From NCBI GenBank assembly GCA_026398135.1, contig JAPLTN010000085.1, forward strand, positions 1 through 64,000: a stretch of 64,000 nt of DNA, in the 5' to 3' direction. Under the pieces are notes generated by a model. The model ran no database searches and was not told the DNA's origin. It worked only from the letters and a program-made list of their open reading frames with translations. The stretch is from Verrucomicrobiota bacterium. Its GTDB lineage: Bacteria > Verrucomicrobiota > Verrucomicrobiia > Opitutales > Opitutaceae. The position numbers and the translations under genes are program-made. Shown here piece by piece: positions 18,710 through 29,080 of the stretch (position 1 is its first letter; the number at the start of each line of letters is the position of its first letter).

Positions 18710-19492
18710 TCAGCGTTTCAGCTGGTTGACGTTCTGGAGCATCTCGTCGGAGGTCTGGATGGACTTGCTGTTCACCTCATAGGCGCGCTGGGCGACGATG
18801 AGGTTCACCATTTCCTCGACGATGTTCACGTTGGAGGTCTCGACGTAGCCCTGCAGCACGCGGGCATAACCGCTTTCACCCGGCTGGCCGCTCTCGGCCG
18901 TGCCGCTGGAACCGGTGGCGGCGTAGAGATTGCCGCCGAGGCTTTCGAGACCGGCGGGATTGGCGAAGCGCGTCACGGTGAGGCGGAAGCTCTGGCTGCC
19001 GGAAGCGCTCTGGTAGGTAACTTCGCCGGATTCGGAGACGTTGATGGCGGTGGTGCCGGCGGGCACATTTTGAAACCCGCTCAGGATGGGCATGCCGTCC
19101 GTATTCACAACCTGGCCACTGGCGTTGAGCTTGAACGAGCCGTCGCGGGTATAGGCGGTGGTGCCGTCGGGACGCTGCACCTCGAAGAAACCGTCGCCTT
19201 GCAGCGCGAGGTCGAGGCGTTCGCCGGTGTTGGTGAGCTGGCCCTGGGTGAAGACCTTGGAGGTGGCGGCTACGCGCGAACCGTTACCGACCTCGATGCC
19301 GGTGGGGACGACGTTGCCGCCGCCGTTTTCCGCGCCCGCGTTCTTGGGTTTCTGGTAGAGCAAATCCTGAAACTGGATGGTGCTGCGCTTGAAGCCGGGG
19401 GTGTTCACGTTCGCGAGGTTGTTCGCGATGGTGTTCAGGTTGAGCTGCTGGGCTTCCATGCCGGTCGCGGCAGAGTACAGGGAGAGATTCAT
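18710..19492 (-). CDS. flgG: Flagellar distal rod protein FlgG
   Basis: A distal rod subunit of 260 residues. The N-terminal LNTIANNLANVNTPGFKRS motif, the central LALQGDGFFEVQRPDGTTAY and the C-terminal VETSNVNIVEEMVNLIVAQR are diagnostic, and the length matches the family exactly. It follows flgF by 12 bp. The leader is CCCCGACCCGCC before ATG, with no Shine-Dalgarno sequence. Confidence 0.96.
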   Translation of the reverse strand: MNLSLYSAATGMEAQQLNLNTIANNLANVNTPGFKRSTIQFQDLLYQKPKNAGAENGGGNVVPTGIEVGNGSRVAATSKVFTQGQLTNTGERLDLALQGDGFFEVQRPDGTTAYTRDGSFKLNASGQVVNTDGMPILSGFQNVPAGTTAINVSESGEVTYQSASGSQSFRLTVTRFANPAGLESLGGNLYAATGSSGTAESGQPGESGYARVLQGYVETSNVNIVEEMVNLIVAQRAYEVNSKSIQTSDEMLQNVNQLKR

Positions 19493-19504: not shown

Positions 19505-20254
19505 TTAAGTTAAGGCGTCCAACGTCTTTGACATGATGCTGTCGCGGCTCTGGATAAGTTTTTGGTTGGCCTCGTAGGCGCGGGCGATGTTGACGAGGTC
19601 CACCATCTCGCGGAGCGGGGCGACGTTGCTCGCCTCCAGGTAGCCTTGTTGCACCACGGGTTTCTCGACGGGAAACATGCCGGCACCGGCGCCGGCCTGA
19701 TAAAGACCACCGGGAAGAGGGATGAGGCGGGAGGGTTGGCCGGCGTCGGAGATGCCCAGCTTGCCCAGGATGGCGTCGCCCTGGCGAACCGTGCCGTCGG
19801 AGGTCACGACCGGGGAACCGCCCTGCTGGAGGAGCTGGATGGGGTCGCCGCGCTCATTGAGAATTTCCAGCCCCTGGCCGGTCACAAGAGTGCGGTCCGG
19901 ACGCACGCTGAGCTCGCCGGCGCGGGTGTAGGCGAGTTCGCCGTCCGGTTTGCGAACGGTGAAGTAGCCGGGACCGGAAACGGCGACGTCGAGGTCGCGG
20001 CGGGTGGGGCGGTTTTCGCCGGGTTGAAACGCGATGGCGTAGCGGGATTGGGGAAACAGCGCGGGCATGCCCTCGCCGCGGTCGGCCCGCGCGCTGGGAT
20101 CAACCAAAACCTCGCCCATGCCCTCGGCCGCCACCTGCACGGTGCGGCGCTTGTAACCGTTGACCTGGCTGGAGGTGATGTTCTGCGAAACCGCATCCTG
20201 CCAACGCTCCAGCGCACTTAAGGAAGCTGCGCTTTGATAGAGCCCGATGTTCAT
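19505..20254 (-). CDS. flgF: Flagellar proximal rod protein FlgF
   Basis: A proximal rod subunit of 249 residues, first gene of the 12-gene flgF-fliC operon. The N-terminus has the rod-protein helix (AVSQNITSSQVNGYKRRTV), the middle DVAVSGPGYFTVRKPDGELA and the C-terminus YLEASNVAPLREMVDLVNIA. A sigma-54-like promoter ends only about 14 bp before the ATG, predicting a leader of roughly three bases. flgB, flgC and fliE are not in this window. Confidence 0.92.
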   Translation of the reverse strand: MNIGLYQSAASLSALERWQDAVSQNITSSQVNGYKRRTVQVAAEGMGEVLVDPSARADRGEGMPALFPQSRYAIAFQPGENRPTRRDLDVAVSGPGYFTVRKPDGELAYTRAGELSVRPDRTLVTGQGLEILNERGDPIQLLQQGGSPVVTSDGTVRQGDAILGKLGISDAGQPSRLIPLPGGLYQAGAGAGMFPVEKPVVQQGYLEASNVAPLREMVDLVNIARAYEANQKLIQSRDSIMSKTLDALT

Positions 20255-20267
20255 AACTCCACACCAT

Positions 20268-20283
20268 AGCAGCGGATGTGCCA
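20268..20283 (-). promoter_or_regulatory. Sigma-54-like -24/-12 promoter of the flgF-fliC operon
   Basis: Reading leftwards, TGGCAC (20283-20278), five bases, then CTGCT (20272-20268). The consensus is TGGCAC-N5-TTGCW, and the invariant GG-N10-GC spacing is exact. Transcription would begin near 20257, three bases before the ATG. Directly upstream are two AT-rich palindromes, CTTAAT-CGTT-ATTAAG (20289-20304) and AATTTTAA-AAAG-TTAAAATT (20308-20327), possible activator sites. Confidence 0.6.
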
Positions 20284-20385
20284 GATTCCTTAATCGTTAT
20301 TAAGCATAATTTTAAAAAGTTAAAATTCAAGACGCCGCTTTTTGCCGATACGACCCAGCAAGATTTGCCGCCCGGGCGCGGGCGC

Positions 20386-21144
20386 TTACTTTTTCCAAAC
20401 CAGCAGCCGGGTGCCGCGCCAATCCGCGAGGGCTATTTCCTGATCGGGGGACACTCCGGGGATTCCGAAGGTATTGCTGATTAACCAGGTGCCGGGACGG
20501 AGTTCAGCCTGGGCTTTTTGCCACAGGGCGGGCATCGGCAGAGGCGACAAAAAGCAGTAAACCACGTCATACTGGGCGAGCGGGACGCGCCAGAGACTGC
20601 GGTAGCGGATGCGGCAATTCCGGCGGGGCAAAGCGCGCAACCAAGCCAAGGCAAAGGTCAGCGGTGCCGTCTCCACCCCGGTGAACCGGGCCTTGGGATA
20701 GAGCCGCGCGAGCTGGCAAAGCGGATCCGCCAGCCCGCAGCCCAGGTCGATAAAGCGGAACTCCGGCGCCTGCTCGCGCAACAACTCCGCCAGGCGAAGG
20801 CTCGCTGCGTTGCTCGTCAGGTAGAGCGGCACCCCGTGGCGAAAACTATTCCAGTTTAAGAGCAATACGACCAGGAATGCCCCCAGGTAGGCGACGGGCG
20901 GCAGCGCGAGTGCGTTCAAGCCCAGCAAGGCGGGCAGGAAAAGCGCCTGGAATATACCCCACCAGCGAGTGAGGCCGAACCGGCGTCCAATCCCTACGGC
21001 GAGTCCGGCCTGCGCCAGCACCAGCAGCGCCCAAGGCAGCCGCACCCGAGCGAAGTTAACCAACAGGAAGGCCGTCAACGCCACCAGCGCCAGCGCGATG
21101 CCTTGGGCGGCAAGCGCCCGCAAAATGGGGTAACGCCGGCGCAT
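20386..21144 (-). CDS. Membrane-anchored class I SAM-dependent methyltransferase
   Basis: A protein of 252 residues with about four hydrophobic segments in its first 90 residues, followed by a Rossmann-like domain. The SAM-binding motif I is visible as FIDLGCGLADPLCQLA, followed by an acidic residue in FTGVETAPL. The substrate is unknown. Its ATG (21144) overlaps the stop of the 80-residue gene as TGATG, which itself overlaps motB the same way, so all three are probably co-translated. The longer TTG start at 21168 would break this arrangement. Possible roles include modification of a flagellar, wall or lipid component; nothing in the sequence decides. Confidence 0.65.
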   Translation of the reverse strand: MRRRYPILRALAAQGIALALVALTAFLLVNFARVRLPWALLVLAQAGLAVGIGRRFGLTRWWGIFQALFLPALLGLNALALPPVAYLGAFLVVLLLNWNSFRHGVPLYLTSNAASLRLAELLREQAPEFRFIDLGCGLADPLCQLARLYPKARFTGVETAPLTFALAWLRALPRRNCRIRYRSLWRVPLAQYDVVYCFLSPLPMPALWQKAQAELRPGTWLISNTFGIPGVSPDQEIALADWRGTRLLVWKK

Positions 21145-21386
21145 CACTTGCCCGCCGGATACAGACAATCGATCTCGATCCGTTCACCACAGGAGCAATG
21201 CACAATAACTCGGGTGATGCGGTCCCCCTCGCGCACGCACTCGATGCGCGTGCCGTCGGCGGCTTCGGGCTGGGTGCGATGGACGTGTTTGCCGCTGGCG
21301 GCCGAGAAAACCGCCGGCGCAGGCACGGGCGCGGCCGCCTGGTTAGGGGTGCCCACCCGGGCGCGATCGGAGAGAAAGGATTTCAT
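21144..21386 (-). CDS. Hypothetical 80-residue protein coupled to motB
   Basis: I do not recognise this protein. It has a variable alanine/proline-rich N-terminus and a compact C-terminal half (RIECVREGDRITRVIVHCSC, then GERIEIDC) with three cysteines and alternating charged/hydrophobic residues, suggesting a small beta-rich fold that may bind metal. No signal peptide or membrane segment is present. Start and stop overlap motB and the methyltransferase gene by one base each, so expression is almost surely tied to the motor operon. Confidence 0.65.
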   Translation of the reverse strand: MKSFLSDRARVGTPNQAAAPVPAPAVFSAASGKHVHRTQPEAADGTRIECVREGDRITRVIVHCSCGERIEIDCLYPAGK

Positions 21387-22246
21387 CAGTGGGTCGGTTT
21401 GGCTTTGGGCTTTTCGGAGGCAGCCGATTCAGACTTCGGCACCGTAGCCGGGGTGTTGGTGGCGGCGGGCGCCGCCGCAGGCGAGGCGGGCTTTTTGGCC
21501 GGCTCGGGTTCGCGTTTTTTTCCGAGCCGCAGACTGAGCGTGACGCGTTGATTGGAGGGGGACTCCGGCGCCATCAGCGGGACCGGTCGGGTGTCCGCAT
21601 AGCCGGTGACGCGCTCGATCTGGCCGTTATCCACGGCGTAGCGCACCAAGGCGCGGCGGGCCGAGTTGGCCCGGTCGGCGGATAATTCCCAAGGGGTATA
21701 ATCCACCGAGGTAAGCACCAAACCGGCGCGGGTATGGCCTTCGATCACGATGTTGAAATGGTTGCGCTCGATCATCCAGGCCAGGCTCTGCATGGCAAAA
21801 TCTCCCCACTTGGTTAACTGCGCGCTCATGTCCTCGAAAAGCGGTTGTTTGGCCCGGTCATAGAGCGTAATGCGCAAGCCATCCGAGGTCACCTGCACTT
21901 CGATGGGCTTATCAGCCAGCGACTCGTCCAGGTTAAGCATTTTATACACGTCTTTGGCCACCGAATTGAGGAATTGCAGATCGATGGTATTCGCCGAGGT
22001 CGATGACTTGCCTCCGCCGGTTTCGCCTTTGTCGCCGCCGCTGGTGTTGGCGGGTTTGTTGGAATCGAAATTCAGAAGCCCCGACTTTTGCTCCATCGGG
22101 GAGGTAAACGGGTTTTGAAAATACTTCGAGGTCGCAATGAGGATCTCCTTGTCCTGCGACGTAAGCCACATGACGAGGAAGAAGGCCATCATGGCGGTCA
22201 TGAAGTCCGCGAACGCCACCTTCCAAGCTCCACCTTTTCCGGCCAT
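21386..22246 (-). CDS. motB: Flagellar motor stator protein MotB
   Basis: A stator subunit of 286 residues. The N-terminal helix (about 8-28) carries the proton/ion-binding Asp14 in VAFADFMTAMMAFFLVMWL. The plug/linker region is followed by an OmpA-like peptidoglycan-binding domain (about 140-245) with IVIEGHTRAG and LSADRANSARRALV. The tail beyond 245 is rich in Ala, Pro and Lys. It follows motA by 53 bp. The ATG lacks a Shine-Dalgarno sequence (AACTCACCCGCATAAC precedes it). Confidence 0.94.
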   Translation of the reverse strand: MAGKGGAWKVAFADFMTAMMAFFLVMWLTSQDKEILIATSKYFQNPFTSPMEQKSGLLNFDSNKPANTSGGDKGETGGGKSSTSANTIDLQFLNSVAKDVYKMLNLDESLADKPIEVQVTSDGLRITLYDRAKQPLFEDMSAQLTKWGDFAMQSLAWMIERNHFNIVIEGHTRAGLVLTSVDYTPWELSADRANSARRALVRYAVDNGQIERVTGYADTRPVPLMAPESPSNQRVTLSLRLGKKREPEPAKKPASPAAAPAATNTPATVPKSESAASEKPKAKPTH

Positions 22247-22299
22247 GTTATGCGGGTGAGTTAAATGTTTTTAAACCGTTCAAGTCAAATGACATGAAC

Positions 22300-23154
22300 C
22301 TACTTTATTGCCTTCAAAATAGTTTCGAGTTCTTCCGCGCCCGGCTGGCAATCATGGGAAACCGTGCGTCTGGCGATCTCCACCGCGGTGATGGGGGCCA
22401 ATCCCTTGGCGAAACCGGACACTGCGGTAACGATGCAGCGCAGATAAGCGCCGTCAGCCGCATCCATAGCCATGATACGGGTGGCCAGGGGATTCACCAT
22501 GCCGTAGGATACGAAGATACCCAGCATCGTGCCGGTCAGCGCGGCGGCGACCTTGGCACCCACCGCTTCGGGACCGTCGGCGATGGAGGACATCGTATTA
22601 ATAATACCAAGCACGGCAGCGACGATGCCAATGGCCGGAAGGGCGTCGGCGATCATTTGGTACGCGTGCACCGGGTGGCTGGCTTCCTCGGCCTTGGCTT
22701 TGAGCTCTTCGTTCAGGAGCGTTTCCAACTGGTCGGGCTTGATCTTGCCGTCGATGACGGGCTTCAGGCCGTTTATCAAAAAGTCCATCCGTGTATGATT
22801 GGAGGTAAACGCGGGATATTTGTTAAAAATCGCACTGCTACCTGGATTCATTACATGTTCTTCCAAAGCGACTAAGCCATTGCGTCGGCCGACCATGAAA
22901 ACCTCGTAGAGCATTTTCATGAGTTCCATGTAGCTGTCCTTGCTGTCGGTCTTACCCGCCAAAGCCACCTGAAGCTTATGGACCATTTCCTTGATCACGC
23001 CGATCGGGGTCGAGATCACGAGCACGCCCAAGGCGATACCAAGGATTACCACGAACTCCGAAACGTGAATCAACACCCCGGGATTGCCGCCAGCCATCAT
23101 GAAGCCGCCAATGGTGGAAGCAAAGACGATGGCCAATCCGATTAGGATAAACAT
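22300..23154 (-). CDS. motA: Flagellar motor stator protein MotA
   Basis: A membrane stator subunit of 284 residues. It has four hydrophobic segments: two near the N-terminus (about 2-20 and 32-50) and two near residues 170-190 and 200-220. The cytoplasmic loop and the PAIGIVAAVLGIINTM segment are typical of MotA, which forms the ion channel with MotB and pushes on FliG. It lies 112 bp after fliA, and the gap may hold a 27-codon ORF. Confidence 0.94.
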   Translation of the reverse strand: MFILIGLAIVFASTIGGFMMAGGNPGVLIHVSEFVVILGIALGVLVISTPIGVIKEMVHKLQVALAGKTDSKDSYMELMKMLYEVFMVGRRNGLVALEEHVMNPGSSAIFNKYPAFTSNHTRMDFLINGLKPVIDGKIKPDQLETLLNEELKAKAEEASHPVHAYQMIADALPAIGIVAAVLGIINTMSSIADGPEAVGAKVAAALTGTMLGIFVSYGMVNPLATRIMAMDAADGAYLRCIVTAVSGFAKGLAPITAVEIARRTVSHDCQPGAEELETILKAIK

Positions 23155-23172
23155 GGGTAATGAGGAGTAGGG

Positions 23173-23256
23173 TTAGGTAGCCAGCGTCGCAGTGACGCCG
23201 TGGAGGCGATCGGGACGCGGAGCAAAATCAGTCGAGGAGGTAGTATCGGCGATCAT
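23173..23256 (-). CDS. Possible 27-residue small protein between fliA and motA
   Basis: An ATG at 23256, 10 bp after the fliA stop, opens a 27-codon frame ending at TAA 23173, 18 bp before the motA ATG. The peptide starts MIADTTSSTDFAPRPDRLHG. The placement has normal operon spacing on both sides, which explains an otherwise odd 112-bp gap. I know no homologue, and chance cannot be excluded. Confidence 0.25.
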   Translation of the reverse strand: MIADTTSSTDFAPRPDRLHGVTATLAT

Positions 23257-23266
23257 CAGCGGGGGC

Positions 23267-24088
23267 TCAGCGATTCCGTGCGGTCGAAATCTGGGCGCGC
23301 AGCCCGAGGATGGCGCGGGAGTGGATCTGGCAGATACGCGACTCGGTCAGTTTAAAAACCGCCGCGATTTCCGCCAATCGCATGTTTTCGTGGTAATACA
23401 TGGCAAGGATACGTCTTTGAATATCGGGCAGTTCCTGAATTTTTTGAGCGACAAGTTGGCTCAACTCCTCGTGTTCGAGGAGATTTTGCACCGGGACGGC
23501 TTGTTCGTCGGCGATCATCTCGTGCCGGCTGCCGCCGCCGCCTTCCTCCATCTCGTTGGTGTCGTCGATGGCGACAAAGCTGATCGGACGAACCTCGACC
23601 ATCCAGTGCTCGTAGTCCTTGGCGCTGAGCCCGAGGTTGGCGCGAATCTCGTCATCCGTGGGGGCGCGTCCGAGCTTCTGTTCCAGCTCGGCGATGGCCG
23701 TCTTGATCTTGCGCGCCTTGGCCCGGGCGCGGCGGGGAAACCAGTCCAGCCGACGCAGTTCATCCAAGACCGCACCCCGCACCCGCGTCGTCGCGTAAGC
23801 GGCAAAGGTATGCTGTTGCTCGGGATTGTAGCGATTCACCGCCGCGATGAGCCCTGTTACGCCCACACTGTAGAGATCGTCCGCATCGACGTGCGCCGGC
23901 AGAGTGAGCTTTAGCCGGTCAACTACATTACGGACCAAGGGGAGATAACGCTCGATCAGGGTTTTTTCGTCCACGGTTCCCCCGGCGGACTGGTAGGCGC
24001 GCCAGGCGTTCGACGAGACGGTGACGGGAGCTGGCGCAGTCGCGCAAGAAGAGGCGACGGTGGGGGCTTGCAGGGTATCGGAGTTCAT
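23267..24088 (-). CDS. fliA: RNA polymerase sigma factor FliA (sigma-28)
   Basis: A flagellar sigma factor of 273 residues. Region 2 has RYLPLVRNVVDRLK, DADDLYSVGVTGLIAAV and FAAYATTRVRGAVLDELRR. Region 3 follows, and region 4 is the helix-turn-helix LAEIAAVFKLTESRICQIHS. An N-terminal extension of about 35 residues is longer than usual. The conserved motifs match the FliA/WhiG group. It probably reads late genes, including the sigma-28-like promoter at 4094-4120. No anti-sigma factor flgM is seen in the window. Confidence 0.94.
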   Translation of the reverse strand: MNSDTLQAPTVASSCATAPAPVTVSSNAWRAYQSAGGTVDEKTLIERYLPLVRNVVDRLKLTLPAHVDADDLYSVGVTGLIAAVNRYNPEQQHTFAAYATTRVRGAVLDELRRLDWFPRRARAKARKIKTAIAELEQKLGRAPTDDEIRANLGLSAKDYEHWMVEVRPISFVAIDDTNEMEEGGGGSRHEMIADEQAVPVQNLLEHEELSQLVAQKIQELPDIQRRILAMYYHENMRLAEIAAVFKLTESRICQIHSRAILGLRAQISTARNR

Positions 24089-24109
24089 AACGATTACGGG
24101 TTGAAATAA

Positions 24110-24460
24110 TTAACGACTGGCGGCCTTCGCCGGGGGCGGCGAGGAGGTGGCCGTCGATTTTGAAGCGGGAGCAGGGGGACGAGCGGAAGGGGATTTGGCA
24201 CCGGCTGCCGGTGCGGGTGGAGCCGACGCAGCGGCTTCGGCGGCCGCGGCGGCGGCTTCGGCGGCGGCTTTGCGCGCCACCACGGTTTCGGAAAACGCAC
24301 GGTCCACCACCTGCCAGAACCAGCGTCCGGCCAACGCGGTGATCAGGCAGGCCACGGCGGCATCGCGCAGCACGAGATCCACCGGACGGTCGGCGGAAAA
24401 TCCCGCCAGAGCCGCCAAGACAAAACCGATGGCCCCGGAAATCAGGAAGGCGAATTTCAT
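24110..24460 (-). CDS. Small membrane protein in the flhG position
   Basis: I do not recognise this 116-residue protein. Two hydrophobic segments (about 2-20 and 30-45) are followed by a helix with an alanine run and a proline/serine/alanine-rich C-terminal tail (about 65-116). The ATG at 24460 overlaps the flhF stop as ATGA, so it is translationally coupled. In many flagellar operons this slot, between flhF and fliA, holds flhG (a ParA-like ATPase); no such ATPase is present here. A role near the flagellar pole or export apparatus is only a guess. Confidence 0.6.
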   Translation of the reverse strand: MKFAFLISGAIGFVLAALAGFSADRPVDLVLRDAAVACLITALAGRWFWQVVDRAFSETVVARKAAAEAAAAAAEAAASAPPAPAAGAKSPSARPPAPASKSTATSSPPPAKAASR

Positions 24461-25488
24461 GACCGCACCCCCAACCCGCGCATCGGCAAGGTGCAGGCCA
24501 GCACCCGCCCCAGCACATCGGCATCGATTTCCCCGGTAAGGCCGGGACCCGTGCTCAAAAACAAGGGGGACAACTCGCCCTCCAAAAGAAACTCCCACAG
24601 ACGCCCCCAGCGCGGGGTCTCATCCAAATGGGTGCAGACCAGATGAGTGGCCCCGAAATCACGCCCACGTGCATAGGCCGTGCGCAGGGCCTCGGCATCG
24701 TAGGCAGCGTTCAAAACCAATACGCGTCCGGCGAATTGCTCGCGGTCCAGGAAGCGGGCCAAATCCCTCGCCTCGCGCGAACCAGCAGCAGGCAAGCCCG
24801 GCAGATCCGCCAGCAAGAACTCGCCCGCCGCGGCCGCATCCACCGGCATGCCCGCCGCGTAGTGGTCCACCGGCACGCCCAGCGCTTCGCCAAAAACATC
24901 CAGCGCCGGAGCCGGATTTGGCCGGTCGAATTCCACCCGCCAGACCCGTCCCGCACGCCCGCGCGTAAACACCTCGTGAGACATCCATTTGCAGAGCGCC
25001 GTGGTGCGCCCCACCCCGGCCGCGCCGAGGAAGGCCACCCGTTCCGGCAAAGGACGCACCGGCCGCGCCGAGGCCCGTAAATCACGCGCCAGATCCGCCA
25101 GCGCTTCATGCAGCGGACGGCTGAGCGTGCGCGTCCAGCCAGGGGAAGTTTCCAGCCGGCCGATCAGACGCTCGGGGAACCCGGCCCGGCGCAGCACCTG
25201 CGGCAGACGCGCGCCATCGGCCAGCGCGAGCGCATTGGGTTCGGGCGCCTTGACCTGCGCAGGCTCCTCGTAAACCGGCGCCGGGGCGGGCAACTCGGCC
25301 ACCACCTCGAAACGCGGCGCGCCAAAAAGTTTGCCCAAGCCACGGCGCGGCTGGCTGCGCACCGAAATCACCCGCGCGTCCGGTCCCAGCCGGTTGCGGA
25401 TCACCTCGACCGCCTCGGCGGTGGAGCCGACTTCAAAGCGGTAGGTGCCGGGGGCGGCGGGTTCGGTCATGGCGGAAGGGGCGATCAT
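24457..25488 (-). CDS. flhF: FlhF-like SRP GTPase with degenerate nucleotide-binding motifs
   Basis: A protein of 343 residues, shorter than typical FlhF. The N-terminal stretch FEVGSTAEAVEVIRNRLGPDARVIS is a clear FlhF signature, and position between flhA and fliA supports it. The P-loop reads GAAGVGRTT (154-162) with Arg in place of the catalytic Lys. The G3 motif reads DLPG instead of DTAG, and G4 reads CTHLDE instead of TKLDE. FlhF normally dimerises on GTP to set flagellar number and place. This version may bind GTP weakly or not at all. ATG 25470 (leader CCTTCCGCC) is an alternative start. Confidence 0.8.
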   Translation of the reverse strand: MIAPSAMTEPAAPGTYRFEVGSTAEAVEVIRNRLGPDARVISVRSQPRRGLGKLFGAPRFEVVAELPAPAPVYEEPAQVKAPEPNALALADGARLPQVLRRAGFPERLIGRLETSPGWTRTLSRPLHEALADLARDLRASARPVRPLPERVAFLGAAGVGRTTALCKWMSHEVFTRGRAGRVWRVEFDRPNPAPALDVFGEALGVPVDHYAAGMPVDAAAAGEFLLADLPGLPAAGSREARDLARFLDREQFAGRVLVLNAAYDAEALRTAYARGRDFGATHLVCTHLDETPRWGRLWEFLLEGELSPLFLSTGPGLTGEIDADVLGRVLACTLPMRGLGVRS

Positions 25489-25503
25489 GGTAAAAGTTCA
25501 GAT

Positions 25504-27711
25504 TCAGGCGGCGCGGGCGACCTGGGCTGCGGGCGGCACCAAGCCGGCCGGAGCGGGGATGATTCCGGCATTTTCCACCTCGGTGGCGGAGGGAAGTTCT
25601 TGATAGGAAAGCACCACGACCCGGGGGAAGGAGGGCTCGATAAAGCGGCGGAGCGGCAGGCGTATCTCGGCCCCGACAACCACCACGACCTGGCCGCCGT
25701 TCTCGGACAGCGTGGCCGAGCCGCGCGAAAGGTGTTCCATCAAGTGACGGCCCAACACGGGATCGAGCGCCAGCCCGACCTCGCCCGGGGTGCGATGCAC
25801 ACGGGCGCCGAGCGCTTGCTCCAGGCGGGGGTCGAGGGTGAGCGCGCGCACCACGCCGGGCCGGGCCTCGTATTCGCCGACAAAGTAAATTCCGAGGCGA
25901 CGACGCACCAGCTCGCTCAGGTCGTCGGGGTTCTTGGTGGTGGCGGCGAAGTCCGCGATGCCTTCCAAAATCACCGGCAGGCCCAGAACCGGCACACCTT
26001 CGCGCAACAGATTCTGCAATACGCGCTGGATCACGCCGAGGTTGACCAGATCGGGCAGCAACTCGGCCACCAGCGCCGGATGATGCGCCTTCACGTGATC
26101 GACCAAGGTCTGCACGTCCTGTCGTCCAAGCAGCAGATGGGCGTTGGATTTCAACACCTCGGAGAGATGCGTGATCACCACCGAAGCGGCGTCCACCACG
26201 GTGTAGCCGTTAAGCTCGGCCACCTTGCGCTCGGACTCCTCGATCCAGACCGCATCGAGGCCGAAAACCGGCTCGCGGCAGGGCGTGCCGCGCAAGGATA
26301 CACGACTGCCGCTCACATTCATCGCCATCCAGCGAGAGGCCTGGACCAGGCCGCGACCGACGGTTTTGCCGCGCAGCAGGAAGCGGTAGTCGTTGGACTC
26401 GAGCTCCAGATTATCCCGCACCGAGATGGGCGGCACAATCACCCCGCGCTCGCGGGCGAGAGTCTTGCGCACACCGGTGATGCGACCGAGCAAATCCCCA
26501 CCCCGGGTCGAGTCCGCCAGCGGCAAAAGCCCGTAACCGACCTCGATGGCAAACACGTCCTGATCAATCACCCGGCGCAACTCGTCCGGAATGCTCCCGG
26601 CCGCAGTACCGCCGCCACCGGAAGCGGCGGGAGCATCGCCCGGCTTGCCCGCCGTCGCCCCAGCCTTGACTGGCGCGCCCGGCGTAGCGGCGGCGGGAGC
26701 GGGCTCGAATTCATCCGGCTGGCCTTCGCCGAGCTGACGCCCGACGTAATAGGCCAGCCCGCCGAGCAACGCAAAAGGCAGCATGGGCATGCCAGGCATC
26801 AGGCCAAACGCCGCCAACATTACTCCCACCACCCGCAACGCGCGGGGATAGCCGAGGAGCTGGCGGCCAATCTGCACGCCGAGATTGGCGTTGCCCGAGG
26901 CTCGTGTAACCAGAATACCGGCCGCGACCGAGATGATCAGCGCGGGAATCTGCGAAATGAGGCCGTCACCGATCGAGAGCAGGGTAAACTTTTGCAGCGA
27001 TTCCGCCAGCGACAGATCCATCTGGAGCACGCCGATGGCGAAGCCGCCCAGGATGTTCACCAACGTGATCAAGATGCCCGCGATCGCCTCGCCGCGCACG
27101 AACTTGGACGAACCGTCCATCGCGCCGTAAAAGTCGGCCTCCTTCTGCACCTTCATGCGCCGGGCCGTGGCGGTGACTTCGTCGATCACGCCGGCATTCA
27201 GCTCGGCGTCGATGGCCATTTGTTTACCGGGCAAAGCGTCCAAGGTGAAACGTGCCGCCACCTCGGCGATACGCCCCGCGCCCTTCGTGATCACCACGAA
27301 GTTGATCAACACCAGAATGATAAACACCACGAAGCCGACCACGTAGTTGCCCTGGATAACGAAGTGGCCGAACGATTCGATCACGCCACCGGCCTCGCCC
27401 TTGGTGAGAATCAGACGCGTGGTACAGATGTTCAGCGCCAGCCGAAACAACGTGAATGCCAGCAAGATGGTGGGGAATCCGGAGAACTCGGGCGGATCCT
27501 TCACATACACGATCACCATCAGAACCAGCAGCGAGAACCCCAGGCTGAGGGCGAGCAGCAGGTCCAGCAACAGCATCGGCACCGGCATGATCAACAGCAG
27601 CACCGTGGCGAACAGCGTTACCGTAAAAACGAAGTCCGCCCGACGCTGAAAGCTCGGTGTCTGCAACTGCGCCGAAGGCGCGGCGGCGGACGTGGCTACG
27701 GCGGCGCTCAT
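25504..27711 (-). CDS. flhA: Flagellar export apparatus protein FlhA
   Basis: The export gate subunit, 735 residues. The N-terminal half has about eight membrane segments and the FHIPEP signature region around FTLDALPGKQMAIDAELNAG. The C-terminal cytoplasmic domain (about 360-720) forms the substrate-docking platform. An alanine/glycine/proline-rich linker at about 325-380 joins them. The ATG overlaps the flhB stop as ATGA, and flhF follows 15 bp after the stop. Confidence 0.96.
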   Translation of the reverse strand: MSAAVATSAAAPSAQLQTPSFQRRADFVFTVTLFATVLLLIMPVPMLLLDLLLALSLGFSLLVLMVIVYVKDPPEFSGFPTILLAFTLFRLALNICTTRLILTKGEAGGVIESFGHFVIQGNYVVGFVVFIILVLINFVVITKGAGRIAEVAARFTLDALPGKQMAIDAELNAGVIDEVTATARRMKVQKEADFYGAMDGSSKFVRGEAIAGILITLVNILGGFAIGVLQMDLSLAESLQKFTLLSIGDGLISQIPALIISVAAGILVTRASGNANLGVQIGRQLLGYPRALRVVGVMLAAFGLMPGMPMLPFALLGGLAYYVGRQLGEGQPDEFEPAPAAATPGAPVKAGATAGKPGDAPAASGGGGTAAGSIPDELRRVIDQDVFAIEVGYGLLPLADSTRGGDLLGRITGVRKTLARERGVIVPPISVRDNLELESNDYRFLLRGKTVGRGLVQASRWMAMNVSGSRVSLRGTPCREPVFGLDAVWIEESERKVAELNGYTVVDAASVVITHLSEVLKSNAHLLLGRQDVQTLVDHVKAHHPALVAELLPDLVNLGVIQRVLQNLLREGVPVLGLPVILEGIADFAATTKNPDDLSELVRRRLGIYFVGEYEARPGVVRALTLDPRLEQALGARVHRTPGEVGLALDPVLGRHLMEHLSRGSATLSENGGQVVVVVGAEIRLPLRRFIEPSFPRVVVLSYQELPSATEVENAGIIPAPAGLVPPAAQVARAA

Positions 27712-28829
27712 GCGGAAACCGCTCCCTCGGTGGCCAGCGCGGCGCGGCGGCTAGGCAGGCGATAGAAATAGTAACGATGCGTGCGGTAAACGAAAGCCAG
27801 GATGCCCGCCACCGCCTGGAAAAGCTCGGACGGGATGGGCGAGCCCACTTTGGCCGTGGCGTAGAGCATGCGGGCCACCGGCCGATTCTCGACCATGGGC
27901 ACCTCGTGTTCGGCGGCGAAGGCCTTGATGCGCCGGGCGAAGGCGTTCTCGCCCTTGGCCAGCACGACCGGAGCGAAGTCCACCCCGCGCTCGTATTTCA
28001 AGGCCACCGCATAGTGCGTCGGATTGGTCACCACCACATCGGCCGTCGCCACCGCTTGCAGCATCTGGCGCTGGGCCAGGCGGCGGGCCATGCGACGGAT
28101 CGCCATCTTCACCTGCGCATTGCCCTCGGCCTGCTTGTGCTCCTCCTTCACCTCCTCCTTCGTCATCATCAAGTCCTTGTTGGTCTTATGCTTCTCGTAG
28201 GCGTAGCAAACTGCGGCGACCACCCCGAGGATTAAAACCAAACGCGACAACAGGCGGTGAATACCATGCTCGATAAACTGCCCCAAATACGAGGCTTCAA
28301 CCGGAGTCGAGAAGAGTGGATCAGCCAATAACTCCCTCATCGCCAGCCATAAGCAGTAGCCGATGGCCACCATTTTCACAAAATCCATCGCGCCATGCAC
28401 CGCCGCTTGCTGCGAAAACAGACGCCCAAACCCAGCCATCGGGTTGAGCTTTTCAAACTTCAGGCCGATCGTCTCGGTGGTTAGTTCAAAACCGCTCTGA
28501 AAGCCACCCGCCAGCAGGGCCGCCACCACCGATCCGACCAAAAAGGGCGCCAATACAATCGCCACCACCTTCGCACCGCCCAGCAGCGGCAAGGGCACCT
28601 CGCCTGCGTGAAACTGCACTTGATGCAACTGGCTCAGCAAAGTGATGGTATATTGCGCCACATCCCTCGCACCGCTCGCCCCGCCTAAACTGATCGCCCA
28701 GAGGCCCGCGACCAACGAAAGCACCACTCCAAGCTCAGCCGTGCGCGCAAACTGGCCTTTCTGATGCGCTTCACTCAGGCGCTTGCCAGAGGCCTGCTCG
28801 GTTTTTGAATCTTTATCGTCGTCGGCCAT
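27708..28829 (-). CDS. flhB: Flagellar export specificity switch FlhB
   Basis: Export apparatus protein of 373 residues with four membrane segments and a cytoplasmic domain containing the autocleavage site NPTH (about 269-272) in VVVTNPTHYAVALKY. Cleavage switches export from hook to filament proteins. I chose ATG 28829, because MADDDKDSKTEQASGKRLSE is the family N-terminus; ATG 28853 and an upstream non-ATG start would lie in or before the promoter. It heads the flhB-to-methyltransferase operon. The leader predicted from the sigma-54 element is about nine bases. Confidence 0.95.
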   Translation of the reverse strand: MADDDKDSKTEQASGKRLSEAHQKGQFARTAELGVVLSLVAGLWAISLGGASGARDVAQYTITLLSQLHQVQFHAGEVPLPLLGGAKVVAIVLAPFLVGSVVAALLAGGFQSGFELTTETIGLKFEKLNPMAGFGRLFSQQAAVHGAMDFVKMVAIGYCLWLAMRELLADPLFSTPVEASYLGQFIEHGIHRLLSRLVLILGVVAAVCYAYEKHKTNKDLMMTKEEVKEEHKQAEGNAQVKMAIRRMARRLAQRQMLQAVATADVVVTNPTHYAVALKYERGVDFAPVVLAKGENAFARRIKAFAAEHEVPMVENRPVARMLYATAKVGSPIPSELFQAVAGILAFVYRTHRYYFYRLPSRRAALATEGAVSA

Positions 28830-28848
28830 GGAGCGTGGCCCAACAATT

Positions 28849-28864
28849 AGCATTCTCGCTGCCA
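28849..28864 (-). promoter_or_regulatory. Sigma-54-like -24/-12 promoter of the flhB operon
   Basis: Reading leftwards, TGGCAG (28864-28859), five bases, then ATGCT (28853-28849), with exact GG-N10-GC spacing. It shares TGGCA-N7-TGCT with the element before flgF. The predicted start site is near 28838, about nine bases before the flhB ATG. An inverted repeat GTTTTATT/AATAAAAC (28889-28896, 28922-28929) lies upstream. Confidence 0.55.
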
Positions 28865-28968
28865 AGGTTTCTTGGCTAGTTGTAAACTGTTTTATTAAAA
28901 GAAGTTAAAGCCTACTTATTAAATAAAACACCCGGAATTCCGCCCAAGCGGGGAACAAACGCTAAAGC

Positions 28969-28987
28969 AGCGGCAAAAAGTGCCGCT
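28969..28987. other. Hairpin in the flhB-ruvA intergenic region
   Basis: A perfect 7-bp stem, AGCGGCA and TGCCGCT, around a 5-base loop, lies 94 bp before the ruvA ATG. No U tract follows in either direction. It could be a dispersed repeat or part of the ruvA leader. Confidence 0.35.
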
Positions 28988-29080
28988 ATCCCACATCGGT
29001 TCTCGTTGGCCTACAGGCTCCAACCGAAATATTCCGATTGGCGATGGACAAGCCGGCCTGGAACTTGGTGATTTCCGCCC

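Follow-up and report, generated by a model that had tools for sequence, protein, structure and literature searches.

Background

In the Proteobacteria, flagellar genes are controlled by hierarchies in which sigma-54 acts with activators of the NtrC family (FleQ/FleR, FlrA/FlrC, FlbD, FlgR), and the sigma-54-dependent flagellar messenger RNAs (mRNAs) have ordinary leaders with Shine-Dalgarno sequences. A 64,000-nucleotide stretch from a genome of the Opitutaceae (Verrucomicrobiota; assembly GCA_026398135.1, contig JAPLTN010000085.1, positions 1 to 64,000 of the forward strand), hereafter the window, carries two flagellar operons headed by flgF and flhB, each with a putative sigma-54 promoter just before its first gene. 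As in the proteobacterial hierarchies, the genes that sigma-54 would drive are those of the basal body, the hook and export; an activator of the REC-AAA+-Fis type is associated with flagella, and a gene for a FliA-like sigma factor lies beside export genes. Unlike in those hierarchies, the end of the promoter is 11-26 nucleotides (nt) from the start codon in nearly all loci.

Leaderless mRNAs, which begin at the start codon or close to it, have been described in Campylobacter and Helicobacter (PMC3847290), Leptospira (PMC5243855) and Sinorhizobium (PMC3616915). The leaderless set of C. jejuni has sigma-70 -10 boxes and is poorly conserved between species, according to the available part of that report (PMC3847290), unlike the predicted leaderlessness described here, which is associated with sigma-54 and conserved across an order. 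In their available parts, these three reports and three others (PMC12403871, PMC3162934, PMC4287350) deal with leaderless mRNAs or with sigma-54 sites and not with the combination. Sigma-54-dependent regulation of motility in Opitutia has already been predicted in a survey of sigma-54 regulons (PMC12316311), so this part of the present findings is not new; the available sections of the survey do not deal with leader length, activator sites, helical phasing or a promoter within fliK. In the literature searched, which was mostly open-access, nothing was found on near-leaderless flagellar promoters of the sigma-54 type, on a phased upstream site or on a promoter inside fliK, and the near-leaderless, helix-phased form with its intragenic fliK promoter is apparently the new part of a known type of flagellar control.

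A proposed sigma-54 motility regulon

Comparison with related genomes argues strongly for a conserved sigma-54 motility regulon in the Opitutaceae and their relatives, comprising a palindrome-bound activator, near-leaderless operon mRNAs and a promoter internal to fliK. An NtrC-type activator encoded on contig C103 of the same genome (REC-AAA+(GAFTGA)-Fis) would bind an GGCAAATTTTGCC-like palindrome located 63-135 base pairs upstream on a single helix face. Once bound, it would cause RNA polymerase-sigma-54 to open at the -24/-12 site. Transcription would begin 0-10 nt ahead of the start codon in most cases; the flgF, flhB and flgB operon mRNAs would have leaders too short for a Shine-Dalgarno sequence, and ribosomes would initiate by recognizing a start codon located at the 5' end or close to it. 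The mRNA from the fliK-internal promoter would be near-leaderless and encode the C-terminal part of FliK and, after it, flgD-flgE. The sites and their conservation, the palindromes with their spacing, rpoN, the co-occurrence of the activator with flagella and the lack of Shine-Dalgarno enrichment are observed directly; the start points, the binding of the activator, the mode of translation and the short FliK we infer from comparisons of sequence. Such a set of operons would supply evidence at the level of a whole regulon for conserved near-leaderless starts tied to sigma-54, and all-or-none control by an activator would be coupled to leaderless translation.

The promoters of the flgF and flhB operons

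The two promoters and the genes next to them are as follows; the C of the GC element is taken as -12 by convention, and all leader lengths in this study were deduced from this -12 geometry.

20268 to 20283, minus strand: putative sigma-54 -24/-12 promoter of the flgF operon, TGGCACATCCGCTGCT (motif; conserved position)
20255 to 20257, minus strand: predicted leader of the flgF mRNA, 3 nt (+1 at 20257, ATG at 20254; arithmetic from -12)
19505 to 20254, minus strand: flgF (PF06429, PF22692)
18710 to 19492, minus strand: flgG, the next same-strand gene after flgF (second, weaker FlgF match; named by eye)
28849 to 28864, minus strand: putative sigma-54 -24/-12 promoter of the flhB operon, TGGCAGCGAGAATGCT (motif; conserved position)
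28830 to 28838, minus strand: predicted leader of the flhB mRNA, 9 nt (+1 at 28838, ATG at 28829; arithmetic from -12)
27708 to 28829, minus strand: flhB, start ATG at 28829 (PF01312, E 1.1e-101)

The original prediction had reported TGGCA-N7-TGCT with the GG-N10-GC spacing on the minus strand at both promoters, and leaders of about 3 and 9 nt; both motifs are present as described, and both predicted leader lengths were reproduced. The open reading frame (ORF) drawn by program for flhB begins further 5', at TTG 28865; the proteins of relatives begin with MADxD or similar. The RpoN that such promoters require is encoded in the same genome (3.39 megabases in 117 contigs; PF04552, E 1.7e-58), which disposes of one way in which the prediction could have failed.

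The prediction had also held that two such matches at the right places were unlikely by chance. On the count alone, the case is weak: the window contains three matches of the TGGCA-N7-TGCT type against a shuffle mean of 0.49, and three were reached in 4 of 100 shuffles, while the whole genome has 52 matches to TGGCAN7TGCW, many of them within genes, against 38 for the backward control. The extended pattern TGGCAYN6TGCWN{9,19}ATG has 127 matches (control 29) in 14 flagellates and 66 (control 23) in 14 non-flagellates, counts that were not used as proof because they are weak and the compared genomes differ in size. The number of motifs being weak evidence, position and conservation must carry the argument, and on these grounds the claim holds.

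Conservation of the promoters among relatives

The comparison with relatives included 57 genomes, the present one among them, of which 33 have a FlgF match (here called flagellates) and 24 do not; FlhB is found in 31. Thirty loci returned per search were examined for flgF, and likewise for flhB. A GG-N10-GC site with a score of at least 8 and no more than 110 nt upstream precedes flgF in all 30 loci, with a predicted leader of 1-6 nt in 28; the leader is longer in L020 (34 nt) and in L023, where the best site gives 16 nt and the second 5 nt. The identity of FlgF to the protein of the window drops to 32% among these loci, so close kinship alone is insufficient to account for the matching sites. 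When flgF and flgB were recounted with genes recognized by protein motif and no site required, the leader was 1-7 nt in 28 of 29 flgF loci (the exception being L256 of genome G019, with 34 nt) and 1-5 nt in all nine flgB loci, including this genome's own copy on C72.

Leaders of 2-11 nt (2-10 nt if four starts are moved one codon back) were found in 17 of the 30 flhB loci; in two others (L061 and L068) the site is weak or distant, and the remaining 11 have none, and in these 13 loci flhB mostly lies close behind another reading frame, as judged by eye. A larger sample of 80 named flhB loci, the best 80 of 212 FlhB relatives in a collection of genome contigs and overlapping with the 57-genome set, consists mostly of Opitutaceae or metagenome-assembled genomes of Opitutia, and includes Geminisphaera colitermitum TAV2. 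The leader is 2-16 nt in 63 of the 80, two have a poor distant match, and 15 have no site; these 17 loci are labelled Spartobacteria, Chthoniobacter, Terrimicrobiaceae, Puniceicoccaceae/-ales, Opitutales or just Verrucomicrobia. That the two promoters of the window are chance occurrences of a nine-base pattern, as the many intragenic copies and the shuffled windows might suggest, is extremely improbable when a site occupies the same place in 28 of 30 flgF and 63 of 80 flhB loci and is accompanied by phased upstream palindromes (below); a chance match was rejected on the strength of this conservation, an argument that would fail only if the relatives had some unrelated constraint in common there.

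A combined set of 80 promoters was assembled from 40 flgF, 17 flhB, 9 flgB and 14 fliK sites, in a search that allowed 8-27 nt from the site to an ATG or GTG start. It leaves out the flhB genes of L100-L179, which are counted only among the 80 named loci, and its entries from L100 onward were picked because a site was present, a condition from which the flgF and flgB recount is free. Column counts over the 80 promoters support -24 and -12 elements with the GG-N10-GC spacing. The further sites before flagellar genes for which a search had been proposed exist both in this genome and in its relatives, and the predicted near-leaderless geometry is shared across the order and by part of the phylum.

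The start calls were made from the DNA alone, and the N-terminus of the predicted short FliK is variable, as might be expected if translation truly started downstream of the assumed ATGs and the leaders were longer than they seem. This is very unlikely: at the operon heads relatives are alike from the first residue (MN[IV]GLYQSA in FlgF, MADxDQDQKTE in FlhB, MIDPIFQ in FlgB), and for flgF and flhB the position of the ATG is constant although the DNA between promoter and ATG varies.

Leaders and Shine-Dalgarno sequences

A Shine-Dalgarno 4-mer is present at -16 to -5 in 12 of 116 first ATGs of long ORFs of this genome (crude gene calls) and in 78 of 736 internal ATGs, so that first ATGs are not enriched in it. 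Among the flgG starts of the loci examined, 1 of 47 has such a 4-mer within 22 nt, and it occurs in one of the 80 predicted leaders of the combined set. Low values for the classes of Verrucomicrobiota, and members in which Shine-Dalgarno sequences are scarce, appear in the available part of a published paper (PMC10783764). Near-leaderless mRNAs are plausible in these genomes because there is hardly any Shine-Dalgarno signal to be lost. For the same reason, the earlier suggestion that sigma-54 control of flagella together with near-leaderless mRNAs would be an unusual combination has to be softened with respect to "unusual", although the combination itself is supported by rpoN, the candidate activator, the palindromes and the conserved geometry. 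These genomes allow a direct approach to the question of how leaderless mRNAs are chosen where a Shine-Dalgarno signal scarcely exists.

Another possibility is that the sigma-54 promoters are real but minor, and that the translated mRNAs start at promoters further upstream and have ordinary leaders. The flgF gene of the window has GGAG directly 5' of its ATG, mostly outside the predicted transcript and usable only on a longer mRNA. Scans of 20200-20500 and 28800-29080 revealed no sigma-70-like promoter, and a longer leader would bring no obvious gain where flgG and first ATGs make no use of Shine-Dalgarno sequences. The distance from site to ATG is, furthermore, kept within a few nucleotides across an order. 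Major transcription from further upstream is accordingly improbable, and initiation next to the start codon from the sigma-54 promoters is the preferred explanation.

An upstream palindrome in helical phase

The promoters are preceded by a palindrome with the consensus CGGCAAATTTTGCCG over the 80-promoter set. In the window it is represented by two candidate activator sites:

20357 to 20369, minus strand: GGCAAATCTTGCT, one mismatch to GGCA-N5-TGCC, 86 nt 5' of the first base of the flgF promoter
28972 to 28984, minus strand: GGCACTTTTTGCC, exact GGCA-N5-TGCC, 120 nt 5' of the first base of the flhB promoter

Exact GGCA-N5-TGCC lies within 250 nt upstream of 22 of 40 flgF, 11 of 17 flhB, 5 of 9 flgB and 5 of 14 fliK promoters, compared to 0.23, 0.13, 0.03 and 0.07, respectively, in first-order shuffles. 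With one mismatch allowed, the palindrome is found at 34 of 40 flgF promoters (5.5 expected) and at every flhB (17; 2.3 expected), flgB (9; 1.4 expected) and fliK promoter (14; 1.8 expected). The best palindrome of 74 of the 80 promoters lies 63-65, 84-88, 98, 109-111, 118-123 or 132-135 nt 5' of the first base, distances that step by about one helical turn with a best period of 11.3. In a permutation test on distinct distances, such phasing was reached in 0 of 5000 trials, a figure that treats neighbouring distances as unrelated and includes fliK distances that are bound to steps of 3. This arrangement points to a candidate activator site upstream of the promoters on a fixed face of the helix. 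Nine of the genome's own TGGCAN7TGCW sites are preceded, at 40-160 nt, by a palindrome with one mismatch or none. In four of them (flgF, flhB, flgB and an operon on C74) the core is AT-rich and the distance is one of the usual ones; the other five have unlike cores.

The candidate activator

A FleQ/FlrC-like activator, for which the original prediction had proposed a search, has a candidate in the NtrC-type enhancer-binding protein on C103, which consists of a receiver domain (REC), a Sigma54_activat domain (PF00158) with GAFTGA, and a Fis-type helix-turn-helix (HTH_8). Proteins of this type (E <= 1e-110) co-occur with flagella: 29 of the 33 flagellates have one, as do 3 of the 24 other genomes (Fisher p = 9.9e-9, uncorrected for kinship). 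In G017, G019, G020, G029 and G035 the gene is located within about 12 kilobases of flagellar genes, and in G017, G020, G035 and the present genome a CheY-like gene is close to it, as judged by eye. No histidine kinase H-box was found in the 30 activator loci (L263-L292), which extend 1.5 kilobases or less on either side of the gene; a kinase may be elsewhere or its motif different.

The three genomes that have the activator and no FlgF match are G041, G008 and G009, the last two with partial matches. G009 (L287) and G008 (L274) are of the same genus, and the G009 protein lacks the receiver part; these partial activators look as if they were decaying after loss of the flagellum, or were cut by contig ends. 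A different enhancer-binding protein, on C64, was rejected as a flagellar regulator, being found in 56 of the 57 relatives. A response regulator with a domain like that of sigma-54 activators (G000:C74:26200-27462; L200:6200-7462) is without GAFTGA and therefore probably unable to activate sigma-54.

A putative promoter inside fliK

In 29 of 32 distinct flgD loci, recognized by protein motif, fliK contains a sigma-54-like site with an in-frame ATG at 15 nt, for a predicted leader of 5 nt. The copy of this genome (G000:C56:1751-2366; L294) is outside the window, and the other 28 are in further loci. That these sites are the head of a fliK-flgD operon was considered and rejected, because the frame is open for 215-745 codons upstream and the sites must be within fliK. 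A palindrome with at most one mismatch is present 111-135 nt upstream of 27 of the 29 sites, the exceptions being L148 (two mismatches) and L170 (labelled Chthoniobacter; none usable). Every palindrome distance (111, 114, 120, 123, 132 and 135 nt) is divisible by 3, which would be expected of a stretch that also codes for part of full-length FliK.

The short FliK that would be translated from the internal promoter is a prediction from sequence. It is mostly 190-250 amino acids long (163, 295 and 550 in three loci), and that of this genome contains the FliK C-terminal domain (PF02120, E 2.8e-6, under the curated cut-off); in G035 the short product reaches no better than E 0.075 with PF02120, and a longer part of the same frame is unmatched. 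The Chthoniobacter-labelled L160 has a site with a leader of 1 nt at the head of a 397-amino-acid fliK-like gene, and there the upstream frame is closed.

The internal site may instead drive only flgD-flgE, with the in-frame ATG having no role of its own and being kept as part of the FliK protein. A site in a coding frame is bound to 3-nt steps, as the palindrome distances show, and full-length FliK must preserve its frame anyway. The fixed spacing cannot be proven by the 29 flgD-locus matches, since the ATG at 15 nt was a condition of that search. In the search that allowed 8-27 nt, however, all 14 fliK matches were at 15 nt and all were ATG, although the FliK residues between promoter and methionine vary freely and the short product has a variable N-terminus. 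Of 3525 like-scoring sites in the same loci, 112 are followed by an ATG at this distance. A promoter for flgD-flgE alone is thus rather unlikely, and a near-leaderless message that begins with the short FliK is favoured.

Genes for type III secretion components such as SctQ/SpaO give rise to internal translation products. The predicted short FliK would likewise be a C-terminal isoform of a secretion-system component made from within its gene, unlike SctQ/SpaO in that an internal promoter replaces an internal ribosome site and that the protein is FliK. A broader proposal, put forward tentatively and with slightly less than even confidence, is that coupling of sigma-54 to leaderless translation extends through the Opitutales and part of the Verrucomicrobiota, with the flagellar regulon made from mRNAs whose first codon is the start codon. 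The fliK-internal promoter would then give a separate leaderless message for the hook genes and for a short FliK that comprises the secretion-switch end, and one locus would provide, under the flagellar activator, both a ruler and a switch protein without the ruler. The predicted isoform would bear on the control of hook length and export specificity.

Observations at odds with the proposed regulon

Several observations weigh against the regulon as proposed. At the level of the promoters, the site is missing, or is no better than a poor distant match, in 17 of the 80 named flhB loci; the flgF leader is 34 nt in G019 and 16 nt for the best-scoring site of L023, and several flgF sites depart from TGGCA/TGC in their first T or in the T of the -12 element, as in CGGCACGCGGTTGGCT. 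The fliK-internal layout is absent from L134, L257 and L258, although the latter two have a site before flgD with other spacing, and the own fliK site on C56 has a poor -12 element, AAGCT, with an exact palindrome at 123 nt. Four flagellates (G006, G015, G037 and G045) have no activator of the C103 type at the cut-off. At the level of the mRNA, a Shine-Dalgarno 4-mer lies within 22 nt of the start in 15 of the 80 heads, though inside the predicted leader in only one, and pairing with the anti-Shine-Dalgarno sequence is better at the heads than at flgG starts (p 5.6e-13). The predicted +1 base of the heads is mostly C, and sigma-54 transcripts usually begin with a purine; the true starts may therefore be 1-2 nt off. 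The start codons of the 80 heads are 74 ATG and 6 GTG, and non-AUG starts are reportedly inefficient on leaderless mRNAs in E. coli, according to the available part of PMC3616915.

Distribution in the phylum

A draw of 194 genomes from the phylum yielded FlgF (E <= 1e-20) in 23, and the upstream DNA of 16 new ones was examined. A site with a predicted leader of 1-7 nt precedes flgF in 13 of them, of which two belong to the same class and five to other classes. The remaining three, G174 (L300), G164 (L303) and G137 (L299), have a sigma-54-like flgF site with about 34-35 nt to the ATG, which is preceded by a purine-rich stretch such as AAGGAG or GGGAG; the flgF starts of G192, G164 and G137 were placed by eye. 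With 13 near-leaderless and three long-leader loci, both states are present in the phylum, and the longer predicted leaders accompany a Shine-Dalgarno-like sequence. The three long-leader genomes are a natural contrast to the near-leaderless state of flgF.

Sigma-54 sites beyond the flagellum

The same genome also has sigma-54 sites at ordinary distances, such as that 84 nt 5' of an ORF resembling glutamine synthetase, as judged by eye. An ammonium-transporter-like gene of G035 (L312) and G029 (L313) has a sigma-54 site with a predicted leader of 5 nt and no palindrome, and in L313 a GlnK/PII-like gene comes next (both genes named by eye). The near-leaderless layout is thus not entirely exclusive to flagellar genes.

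The operon on C74 (G000:C74:8868-10571; L199) encodes a protein of 160-200 amino acids, of which the own copy has no Pfam match, and an actin/MreB-like protein. The closest solved chain to the latter is 8r2n_A, 'Actin/actin family protein' (E 2e-112), followed by chains named 'Actin-like ATPase'. In 9 of 21 loci of this operon (L199, L315-L319 and L321-L323, the last three weak) the first ATG is 1-11 nt from a sigma-54-like site. The actin-like protein is present in 19 of 33 flagellates and 1 of 24 non-flagellates, and may possibly be a flagellum-linked bacterial actin.

Other flagellar genes of the window

The following genes of the window lie between the two promoters, on the same strand as flhB.

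25504 to 27711, minus strand: flhA (PF00771)
23267 to 24088, minus strand: sigma factor of the sigma-70 family, FliA-like by eye (PF04542, PF04539, PF04545)
22300 to 23154, minus strand: motA (PF20560, PF01618)
21386 to 22246, minus strand: motB (PF13677, PF00691)

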